NCBI GenBank assembly: GCA_902784095.1
Contig: CACZTK010000050.1
Span: forward strand, 1 to 35,069
DNA: 35,069 bases
Direction of reading: 5' to 3'
Source of the DNA: an uncultured Erysipelotrichaceae bacterium
GTDB taxonomy: Bacteria; Bacillota_I; Bacilli_A; RF39; UBA660
The translations under genes and the position numbers were made by a program. Positions 32,108 through 35,069 of this stretch are shown here, piece after piece. The notes below the pieces were generated by a model. The model did not search any database and was not told the DNA's origin. It saw only the letters and a list, made by a program, of their open reading frames with translations. How positions within the stretch are numbered: position 1 is the stretch's first letter; every line of letters begins with the position of its first letter.

Positions 32108-32197
32108 ACTAATCAACTCCTATTATATATAAGTATACTACAAATTATTAAAAAGTACATCTAAAATGTCCATAATTACGTAAAATGAAAGACTTTT

Positions 32198-32215
32198 ATA
32201 TAAAAATTTGCTACA
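32198..32215 (+). promoter_or_regulatory. Extended -10 region of the 408-aa gene
   Basis: TGCTACAAT (TG-n-TACAAT) lies just after an AT-rich run on the plus strand, about 20 nt before the RBS AAAGGTGAT and the ATG at 32236. Coordinates are approximate. The gene diverges from the YukD-like gene across a gap of about 130 bp. Confidence 0.5.
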
Positions 32216-32235
32216 ATTATATAAAGGTGATAGCT

Positions 32236-33462
32236 ATGAAATATAAGAATAGTGATTTGTATAATTATATTTTAAAAGTTGATAGTGAAAGTGATTTGTT
32301 ACATGAAGTATATCAAAAGACGTTGAGCATTTTAAATACTGAAGGATTAGAAAAAGATTTATCTTATGATATGAAGCAAATATTTATAGGTACATTTAAA
32401 ACAAGTCATGATGATACTAGAAGCAATACTATATATGAGTTAGATAGAGTTTTAGAAACTTATATAAACCTTTTTAGGGTAGAAAAAAATGAAGATAATA
32501 GTTATGTTGTTTATCCTAAATTAAAAGAAACTCCTACTAAAGATGATCTATTAATGTTTTATTGTTTAAAAAAGAATATGAATACTCAAGAAATCATAGA
32601 TTATTTAAAACCAAAAAATAAAGCTTTTAAAGAAGAATTAAAGCAAGGAAAAATAGAACCATATTATGGAAATTCAAGATATTTAATACTACATACAAAA
32701 GCTATATATGATGCAATAGAACTATTAAGTAAAAGAAATGATATAGAAAATAAAGGACTTGTTTTAAAGACACAAAAATCTGTTGAAGAGTTATTATTAA
32801 ATATGACTAAAACAGCCAATTTAGAGTATACTGATGATACTTTTAGACAAATGAAATATTCTACCAAGGATGTCCTATTAGAAAAAGAACAATATGATAC
32901 ACTTAGAAATTTATATACTAAAGTTTTAGAAAAGGAAGATAATTTAATTGATATTTCATCTAAAATATGGAAAGATTATGAAACTTATGAAGGAGGTCTT
33001 TTAATTCATCAATTAACAGGAGCAATGGTTGAATCCTATAAAATGAATAAAATATGCACAAGTTTTTATTCAGAACAAGCCAAAGTATTAATAAACTATC
33101 ATAATACAAATACTGGTTATGCTTATCCAATGGACATCAATCACATATTTACAATTTGTGAAGAAGATGTCGGTAGTTGGACTATTACTAAAGAAGATTT
33201 TATTGATAGAGACCTTCCTTCTTCTTGGCAATTGGATGGTAAAGGTATTCGCTATGAATACCCTTATAATACTAGATTATTCCCACCAGAGTATATTGAA
33301 AACAAAGTTAAGAATAATGATAGTTTTGCAGAAATAATTATAGATAATAAAAATGATAAAGTTAAACCATCATTTTGTTTTTATACAGAAAATGCTTCCT
33401 TAGATCAAAAAGAAAGAATAACAGATTTAGCAAAAAAACAAAATTTAAATAAATTATTATAA
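32236..33462 (+). CDS. Orphan hypothetical protein, 408 aa
   Basis: This soluble 408-aa protein starts MKYKNSDLYNYILKV. An upstream in-frame ATG at 32185 is rejected because AAAGGTGAT precedes the ATG at 32236. The N-terminal 270 residues look mostly helical. The C-terminal part has a Trp/Tyr/Pro-rich segment (CEEDVGSWTITKEDFIDRD, SSWQLDGKGIRYEYPYN) and ends KPSFCFYTENASLDQKERIT. No signal peptide, membrane helix or motif of a known enzyme is recognised. It is transcribed alone, divergent from the YukD-like gene, and ends in a strong terminator. The link to the neighbouring acidic and WXG-type genes is unknown. Confidence 0.8.
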   Translation: MKYKNSDLYNYILKVDSESDLLHEVYQKTLSILNTEGLEKDLSYDMKQIFIGTFKTSHDDTRSNTIYELDRVLETYINLFRVEKNEDNSYVVYPKLKETPTKDDLLMFYCLKKNMNTQEIIDYLKPKNKAFKEELKQGKIEPYYGNSRYLILHTKAIYDAIELLSKRNDIENKGLVLKTQKSVEELLLNMTKTANLEYTDDTFRQMKYSTKDVLLEKEQYDTLRNLYTKVLEKEDNLIDISSKIWKDYETYEGGLLIHQLTGAMVESYKMNKICTSFYSEQAKVLINYHNTNTGYAYPMDINHIFTICEEDVGSWTITKEDFIDRDLPSSWQLDGKGIRYEYPYNTRLFPPEYIENKVKNNDSFAEIIIDNKNDKVKPSFCFYTENASLDQKERITDLAKKQNLNKLL

Positions 33463-33488
33463 ATAATATCAAACGATATTATTTTTTT
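33462..33488 (+). terminator. Intrinsic terminator of the 408-aa gene
   Basis: AATAATATC/GATATTATT with loop AAAC is followed by five more T on the plus strand. The stop's last base begins the stem. Confidence 0.88.
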
Positions 33489-33492
33489 AGAC

Positions 33493-33524
33493 AAAAAAAG
33501 AGAAAAGTTAATCACTCTTTTCTC
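33493..33524 (-). terminator. Intrinsic terminator of the candidate ncRNA
   Basis: On the minus strand GAGAAAAG pairs with CTTTTCTC across a 9-nt loop and is followed by seven T (33499-33493). No minus-strand protein gene ends here, and the previous gene already has its own terminator at 34131-34156. The hairpin therefore points to a separate transcript. Confidence 0.82.
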
Positions 33525-33917
33525 AAAAACTTATATTTTTTTATTATGTTGGATATAATAACCAACCATTCATCACTGAATACGTTATTATAAAAATAAT
33601 AAAATTGTTTTCTCAAAGTATTTACAGTTAGCTACACATGTAAATCTTTCGCGTTTTATTTTTTTGAACAGTGAGTCCATCTCTCACATAATACTCTTGG
33701 ATTTAGTCTCTTGTAATAATTAAAAACTATTACAGCAAATGCATTTGACTAGATTTAGATTAATCACAAAATTTAACAACTTATATCTGTTTTAGAATGT
33801 GTTAAAGCGAAACACCAAAAGCATATACAATTTACTCTTCAATCTTTAATAATTCATCCGTAAAAATGGATTATTAAACAAATAGGAGTATTAAGTGAAA
33901 TGATTATAAAAGCGAAT

Positions 33918-33992
33918 ATGCAAATTATTAACGTATATATAACTCAATCCATATAAATGCAAATTGTTATATAGCCAACTCAATCCATATTC
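33918..33992. repeat. Two imperfect tandem copies of a 36-39-bp repeat in the ncRNA 5' domain
   Basis: Both copies (33918-33956 and 33957-33992) begin ATGCAAATT and end AACTCAATCCATAT on the plus strand, with a diverged centre. There is no spacer between them, so this is not a CRISPR array. They form part of the predicted 5' stem domain. Confidence 0.6.
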
Positions 33993-34009
33993 ATATCATT
34001 TCTATATAC

Positions 34010-34075
34010 ACTATACCATACCCATAGATTAGTGTCAATACTATTTTTATTTTTTTTATTTTTTTTATTTTTATT
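34010..34075 (-). promoter_or_regulatory. Strong promoter of the candidate ncRNA with UP-like A-tracts
   Basis: The minus strand has TTGACA (34038-34033), a 17-nt spacer and TATAGT (34015-34010), with TG one base before the -10. Upstream, A-tracts repeat about every 9-10 bp (AAATAAAAATAAAAAAAAT), the look of an UP element. It has the best consensus match in the window. The transcription start should be near 34003. Confidence 0.82.
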
Positions 34076-34130
34076 TACACTTTACTTGTCAGTATTGTAA
34101 AAATCAGTGCATATACAATTTTAATATAAC

Positions 34131-34156
34131 AAAAAAGAGTGAATTTTATCACTCTT
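34131..34156 (-). terminator. Intrinsic terminator after the Ser-Asp-rich acidic gene
   Basis: AAGAGTGA/TCACTCTT (34149-34156 and 34135-34142) has a 6-nt loop and is followed on the minus strand by six T. It ends the transcript from the WXG-like and acidic genes before the ncRNA promoter. Confidence 0.88.
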
Positions 34157-34176
34157 AAATATACAATGATTTATTT

Positions 34177-34506
34177 TTAAAAGAAATCCTCTAAATCATC
34201 AACTGATTCATCATTTTCTTCTATTCCTGTACTAGATTCTTCATCTAATGATTCGATATCACTATCATCATCACTATCAAAATCTGAATCTGAATCGGAA
34301 TCGGAATCAGAATCACTTTCAGCCTCTTCGTCTCCATAGTCAACATATTGAGTATTTCTGGTTAATACATCCATTAAATCAATATCCAAACTATTTATGA
34401 ATTCGAATCTTTCTCTTTCTTTATCACTCAAAGTAGAATCTATGATTAATTTACCATCAGATCCAAGATGCTTCTTGATGCTTTCTAATTCTTCTTCTCT
34501 TATCAT
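34177..34506 (-). CDS. Small acidic protein with Ser-Asp repeats
   Basis: This 109-aa protein has an N-terminal charged helical part (MIREEELESIKKHLGSDGKL) and an Asp/Ser tract at about residues 62-85 (EAESDSDSDSDSDSDFDSDD), then an acidic tail ending LEDFF. The tract comes from a hexanucleotide repeat in the DNA. There is no signal peptide, so it is unlike the wall-anchored Sdr proteins and should be cytoplasmic unless exported another way. The RBS AGGTGAT is good, and it starts 13 nt after the WXG-like gene stop. The larger acidic protein about 2.4 kb away shares the Asp/Ser-rich character. Function unknown. Confidence 0.72.
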   Translation of the reverse strand: MIREEELESIKKHLGSDGKLIIDSTLSDKERERFEFINSLDIDLMDVLTRNTQYVDYGDEEAESDSDSDSDSDSDFDSDDDSDIESLDEESSTGIEENDESVDDLEDFF

Positions 34507-34519
34507 TAAAAATCACCTA

Positions 34520-35069
34520 TTACTTGAATAATACGTCACCGATAAATTCTTCTTCTAATTTATTAGCAACATTTTTGATTTCTTTTTCTCTCTTATCTAA
34601 TGCTGTGATACGTCCACCAGATTTTTTATGTAAATCACCTTTAGTATAACTCTTAATACTTTCCCATGTCTTATTCATGTTATTAGTATAATTAGCTAAC
34701 TCCATTAAAGATTGTTTTAAGTTAATGTAACATTTATAAGCTGTTTTTGTGTTACAATCTGATGATGAATCATCATGAACTGTAGCAGGTACTCCACTAA
34801 GCTTTAATGAATTAAGATCTTTATTCTTAACTGTTTTAGTATAGATAGTTCCGTCAAATCTTGCTAAGAAAGCTTTCTTTTTAGAAATTTTCTTACCATC
34901 AGCCTTATCTACTTCCTTTGCTAATTCTACATAAATCTTATAACTATTTTCATAGTTACCACACATTTTGCTTAGATATAACATACAATTGTCATACCAT
35001 TCATGTGCAGCTTTACCATCCCAATAAGCATTTTGGCTATCACCATTCATCATCTGCTTTAAATAATTA
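34520..35069 (-). CDS. WXG100/LXG-like protein, N-terminus outside the window
   Basis: The frame is open to the right edge, with codons N-Y-L-K-Q before the Met-Met at 35053 and no RBS there, so the true start lies beyond the window. At least 182 aa are visible. The stretch AYWDGKAAHEWYDNCMLYLS contains a W-x-G turn followed by a long helix, as in the second half of WXG100 proteins. About 100 further residues follow, containing SLKLSGVPATVHDDSSSDC and a helical C-terminal part. WXG100 proteins are substrates or partners of type VII secretion. A YukD-like gene nearby supports this. The assignment rests on a short motif and is moderate. Confidence 0.58.
   Translation of the reverse strand, partial: NYLKQMMNGDSQNAYWDGKAAHEWYDNCMLYLSKMCGNYENSYKIYVELAKEVDKADGKKISKKKAFLARFDGTIYTKTVKNKDLNSLKLSGVPATVHDDSSSDCNTKTAYKCYINLKQSLMELANYTNNMNKTWESIKSYTKGDLHKKSGGRITALDKREKEIKNVANKLEEEFIGDVLFK

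Follow-up and report, generated by a model that had tools for sequence, protein, structure and literature searches.

The window analyzed here is the entire contig C50 (35,069 nucleotides) of the 102-contig, 1.2-Mb genome of an uncultured Erysipelotrichaceae bacterium. Its minus strand carries, at positions 33493 to 34003, a gene of about 511 nt for a noncoding RNA, recognized by its promoter and terminator anatomy, by nine homologous copies, and by covariation. The promoter, TTGACA-N17-TATAGT with an extended −10 element (TGG), lies at 34010 to 34038 on the same strand, and the gene closes with a hairpin and U-run (GAGAAAAG-AGUGAUUAA-CUUUUCUC-U7) at 33493 to 33524 on that strand; the 5′ end is inferred from the −10 box and the 3′ end is the T-run. 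Looser promoter-like sites occur at chance level (29 in a 3-kb region, with 26 ± 5.5 expected), but this promoter ranks first among the 29 (11/12 plus TG) and is the sole instance of TTGACA-N16-18-TATnnT on either strand of the 35-kb window. The terminator scanner overlooked the 33524-33493 hairpin and T7 because the loop is 9 nt and the limit was 8. On the 5′ side, a separate terminator (34130 to 34156, minus strand) closes the upstream gene; on the 3′ side, a convergent gene (32185 to 33462, plus strand) ends at a terminator-like hairpin with a T-run (33462 to 33490, plus strand). The sequence-only reading had proposed both minus-strand borders and a separate terminator for the upstream mRNA, and all of these are present, the last at 34156-34130. 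Since the block has a promoter and a terminator to itself and each neighboring gene stops at a terminator-like site of its own, it is predicted to be an independent transcription unit, as that reading had held. The convergent gene encodes a 425-aa protein with no match in Pfam, PHROG, NCBIfam, or PADLOC and only two distant relatives among 145 family genomes, one of them within a 2032-aa open frame.

The claim that the block is free of genes also stood up. Its longest sense open reading frame has 34 codons, and no good Shine-Dalgarno sequence precedes any frame. A 30-codon frame that opens with ATG (about 33680-33588) could be taken as a sign of a short mRNA or of decayed coding DNA, but no conserved reading frame was seen in the homologs and the stems covary, which in practice refutes that idea. 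The GC content of the RNA is 0.25, that of the window 0.26. Its folding energy is unremarkable when taken alone (z = −2.1); in seven of the eight homologs, z is −4 to −6.

A blastn search of 386 genomes of the family returned one real homolog, in G316 (E value, 2e-12); this RNA has a TTGACA-N17-TATTAT promoter, is about 454 nt long, and ends in a terminator whose loop is that of the window RNA. The short blastn matches in other relatives were mostly AT-rich chance matches, and a weak match at G003:C24 (E value, 0.09) was rejected as coding DNA. The G316 RNA precedes rsmC, and inspection of the same place in the window's genus gave the copies in G001, G003, and G006; covariance models then added those in G125 and G478 and two in tandem in G537. 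Beyond the window copy, the family thus yielded eight more (314 to 491 nt) from seven genomes, for a total of nine RNAs of 314 to 511 nt in eight genomes. The same kind of promoter precedes all nine, and all nine end in a terminator with the loop GUGAUU(A/G). The tandem duplication in G537 (L113 9990-10930) has a promoter and a terminator for each copy. Within the window's genus, the RNA occurs in four of nine genomes; in the wider family, it looks rare in large scans whose strict filters lost known members. A pattern scan of genome contigs recovered G316 alone, and the matches in pattern scans of viral contigs proved to be chance matches when checked by covariance model. In comparisons with phage and plasmid DNA, the window RNA was unmatched and the G316 copy gave short, weak matches only.

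The conserved core consists of the long-range helix P4, which encloses P5, P6, and an optional P7, followed by P8, the strand AAACGCG, P11, UUGAGAAAAC, a variable part, and the terminator; all positions that follow are on the minus strand. The arms of P4 lie at 33815 to 33825 (5′) and, as placed by the covariation analysis, at 33690 to 33700 (3′), and two-sided changes were found at 12 of its 12 pairs. P5 (33772 to 33806) has such changes at six of seven pairs, and P11 (33615 to 33649), which bears the nine-nucleotide loop NNUAGCUAA, at 11 of 13. Between P5 and P11 lie a joining strand (GAUUAAUCUA..CUAGU; 33748 to 33765) conserved in the alignment of copies, P6 (CAAA-UGCA-UUUG; 33736 to 33747), P7 (33710 to 33735), which is missing in G001 and G006, P8 (GUGAG-AGAUGGA-CUCAC; 33671 to 33687), which is helix 5 of the covariation analysis, and the conserved single strand AAACGCG (33650 to 33656), which reads AAACUCG in some copies. 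The conserved UUGAGAAAAC (33607 to 33616) is found 3′ of P11. The 5′ domain is variable: its two direct repeats of ATATGGATTGAGTT (33939 to 33990) were not seen in relatives, and a hairpin stands at the place of P1 (33845 to 33878) also in G316, G001, G003, and G006. The hairpin with a GNRA-type loop picked out in the sequence-only reading does exist, but it belongs to a nonconserved domain. Across the RNA, loops and joining strands are conserved more than stems. The terminator loop is kept while its stem varies, which is unusual for a mere terminator. UAAUC in the joining strand is complementary to GAUUA of this loop; we do not claim the corresponding pseudoknot, as the G537 copies vary there without clear compensation.

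A full-length MAFFT alignment of five copies misaligned the hairpins, and a model-based alignment was used instead. Model R1, built from the window RNA and G316, detects G003 at 7e-9, G001 at 6e-7, and G006 at 2e-5; model R2, built from the last three, detects G316 at 6e-14, the window RNA at 3e-6, and G125 at 5e-18. Models from disjoint sets thus detect each other's members, a result that owes nothing to an alignment made with the answer in mind. In the nine-sequence alignment, which was fitted to the structure so that pairing counts are favored, 96.4% of cells pair. Two-sided changes occur at 39 of 53 base pairs, compared with 20.8 ± 2.5 in shuffled alignments (none of 500 reached 39) and 4 to 14 when the structure was slid along the alignment. 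Counted by cells, the figures are 94 for the real structure, 32.0 ± 4.2 for the shuffles, and at most 22 for the slid controls. The proposal of a structured noncoding RNA, for which covarying base pairs in homologs were the suggested check, is borne out by these values. Comparative analysis thus establishes the locus as a stand-alone gene for a structured noncoding RNA, with a predicted core fold of the covarying helices P4, P5, P6, P8, and P11.

Rfam gave no match at threshold in the window, and permissive Rfam scans of the window copy and its relatives gave chance matches only, so that the Infernal check against Rfam yielded no credible family. In agreement with the absence of tmRNA, RNase P, SRP, and 6S landmarks noted earlier, neither covariance models nor ARAGORN matched any of these RNAs. 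The manA-II motif (RF04315), a Leptotrichia leader (PMC11109978), was rejected: it scored 27.8 of 100 bits in G125 alone, with two helices broken, and did not appear in other copies. Rfam is blank, models from separate subsets cross-detect, base pairs covary, and pairing holds in 96% of cells. As judged from sequence, the class is therefore real and, within the tools applied, new. The plausibility of a new class, raised in the sequence-only reading, is thereby supported by Rfam-negative, covarying homologs, and we rate the RNA as a new class within the large structured noncoding RNAs.

That reading had also entertained membership in the OLE, GOLLD, or ROOL types. A diverged member of one of these families would account for the size, the complexity, and a palindromic loop like L9.3 of OLE, and OLE variants are known in RF39 organisms (PMC11332333). 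However, the RNA class has no covariance-model match to OLE (RF01071) or to ROOL or GOLLD, there was no Rfam match up to an E value of 10 for the window, G316, G125, and G537 copies, and the window holds no tRNA. A setting like that of ROOL or GOLLD was likewise lacking in the window: there is no real phage match, and the neighbors are secretion and ribosomal genes. No CNNM/OapA-like match was found among the window proteins scanned. Membership in any of these families is thus very improbable.

The loop of P6 is self-complementary in all nine copies, strictly so in eight and with G-U pairs in one. GUAC occurs in four copies, UGCA in two, and ACGU, GCGC, and GCGU (the word with G-U pairs) in one each. 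Four of the five distinct words are thus strict palindromes, for which the chance expectation is about 7e-5 to 3e-4; only 19 of 272 hairpins of the window with 4-bp stems and 4-nt loops have such loops. P6 remains self-complementary while all four letters change, as loop-to-loop pairing between two copies of the RNA would require; nothing in a hairpin loop by itself would call for this. The hairpin may therefore form a symmetric kissing loop. The same argument from palindrome switching has been made for L9.3 of OLE and L21a of GOLLD, whose structures are solved (PMC12286853). From these loop sequences, the RNA probably homodimerizes through P6; we treat dimerization as likely rather than as proven because the palindrome was spotted after the fact and in related sequences. 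The GCGU and GCGC words of the two G537 copies are also able to pair with one another.

At seven of the eight RNA loci, the neighbors are genes of a reduced type VII secretion locus, which encodes EssC, a YukD-like protein, WXG-like proteins, and a small acidic protein; several different gene orders and positions occur. EssC was identified by the equivalog TIGR03928, above its cutoff, in G001, G003, G125, G478, and contig C97 of the window's own genome, whereas the names YukD, WXG, and acidic rest on size, position, and motif because Pfam gave no significant match. In G001 and G003, the order is rplL, essC, the yukD-like gene, WXG-like genes, the acidic gene, the RNA, and rsmC, and the tail end of this order is visible in G006. 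In G125, WXG-like genes are followed by the acidic gene, essC, the yukD-like gene, and the RNA. In G478, the RNA gene is flanked by essC and the acidic gene, both on the other strand, close to yebC, and the two G537 copies lie between a WXG-like gene and rsmC. In the window, the RNA is 3′ of a WXG-like gene (34520 to 35053, minus strand) and the acidic gene (34177 to 34506, minus strand), homologs of which adjoin the RNA in G001, G003, G006, and G478. The window itself is linked to EssC only through a paralog of the WXG-like gene, 88% identical, directly before essC on contig C97. Both contigs end 16 bases before the start of this gene (window 35053-35069; C97 1-17), which suggests that the assembly split at a repeat and that the genome's secretion locus is fragmented. 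The acidic family (window, G001, G003, G006, G125, and G478) has no significant match in Pfam or NCBIfam, accompanies WXG-like genes, and shares a tail such as DLDSLNNLF, DDLEDFF, or SDLNDIF. PADLOC gave no match among eight nearby proteins, and a defense-system reading was rejected on that ground.

It is possible, although unlikely, that a real noncoding RNA acting alone and the secretion genes merely occupy one insertion hot spot and that the linkage has no functional meaning. The G316 RNA has no secretion genes within the 9 kb around it and adjoins an insertion sequence (UPF0236 family), and the rplL-rsmC gap also houses an insertion sequence and other promoter- and terminator-bounded blocks. 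The linkage counts are not independent, since several of the rplL-rsmC loci may represent one ancestral arrangement and the gap may be a hot spot, and G004 and G021 have secretion genes without the RNA. However, RNA and secretion genes also occur together outside this gap, in the window, in G478 (near yebC), and in G125 (after the yukD-like gene). Among the other blocks, RNA-B (AAGAGAAAGAAAACUCUU) and RNA-C (AAGAAGGAAAACUUU) are gene-free, promoter- and terminator-bounded stretches before rsmC in G000 and G002 (L067, on own contig C10, 1-640; L065 in G002). Rfam gave no match in L065 or L067, and motifs like theirs are seen again in G004 in the stretch from rplL to essC (L097 5278-6142); they are probably more noncoding RNA classes at the same hot spot. 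The rplL-rsmC gap of G099 (L059 2060-2640) has a gene-free block of roughly 400 nt with a promoter and a terminator, unrecognized by the three covariance models of the RNA class.

Since rsmC lies downstream on the same strand in G001, G003, G006, G316, and G537, the RNA could be read as a cis-acting leader, a riboswitch or attenuator, of the following gene. This is largely refuted: a terminator of its own closes each copy, a separate leader hairpin precedes rsmC 3′ of the RNA, the next gene in the window is convergent, and both G478 neighbors are on the other strand, so that cis control is not possible in the window and G478, where no same-strand neighbor gene follows. The leader hairpin, of the type GAAAGGAGACAAC...GUUGUCUCUUUCUUUUU, is conserved before rsmC in close relatives (L063-L071).

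We favor, at a probability of about 0.55, a stand-alone RNA, probably a homodimer, that accompanies the type VII secretion module and probably serves it. Two copies would join through the P6 loop, and the dimer would work in trans for the module, as a scaffold or a regulator made of RNA or of RNA and protein, in a manner like that of OLE rather than a riboswitch. Action in trans is suggested by the lack of a same-strand gene after the RNA in the window and G478, and a role for the module by the RNA's accompanying it through different gene orders and places; a scaffold or regulatory ribonucleoprotein is our best guess for that role. A more specific version, doubtful at present, would make the RNA a dimeric component dedicated to a minimal type VII secretion system, such as a scaffold, substrate, or gate; it would then count as the first structural RNA in a secretion machine of this kind. 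Alternatively, the exposed loops AGAUGGA, UAGCUAA, and GUGAUUA might bind mRNAs of the secretion locus in the way of a trans base-pairing small RNA or sponge, with P6 a plain hairpin. Loops and joining strands conserved beyond the stems would suit such a role, but the RNA is far larger and more folded than ordinary small RNAs and the self-complementary P6 loop would be left without a reason, and we consider this improbable.

Among known systems, a large, structured, single-gene RNA of Bacillota-type bacteria including RF39 recalls OLE, a dimer in which a loop tetranucleotide switches between palindromes (PMC12286853) and which is tied to a secretion phenotype (PMC11332333). OLE is closest in manner, being large, encoded by a single gene, and dimeric, as our RNA probably is, but none of the tests run made it a member. 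The RNA class is shorter (314 to 511 nt), has no Rfam match and other helices, and neighbors a secretion locus rather than the OapA gene. ROOL and GOLLD are large and ornate, form symmetric kissing loops, and have no known function (PMC12286853); they occur in phages and prophages near tRNA islands, whereas the present class, also without an Rfam match to them, lies elsewhere. The smtA motif ("Soda Lake RNA"; PMC11109978) is also large and restricted to one lineage, and in some cases it precedes a SAM methyltransferase gene, but it is confined to Thioalkalivibrio, and the link of our RNA to rsmC is positional and missing in the window. An EssC/TsxC ATPase, a ubiquitin-like protein, and WXG100-type proteins are shared with T7SSb-T7SSj, for which the available parts of the description (PMC11217815) mention no RNA; the RNA loci show few other known components, plus the small acidic protein. 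Within the open literature, no structured RNA linked to type VII secretion was found, which is weak evidence.

Two observations go beyond the sequence-only reading, namely the linkage to type VII secretion and the palindromic P6 loop. Bacteria have few large structured RNAs, most of them without an assigned role. The present class offers two testable handles: the accompanying secretion module and a P6 self-pairing that mutations could abolish and then reinstate. Should the link prove true, a large RNA would be tied to a protein secretion machine in uncultured bacteria with reduced genomes.
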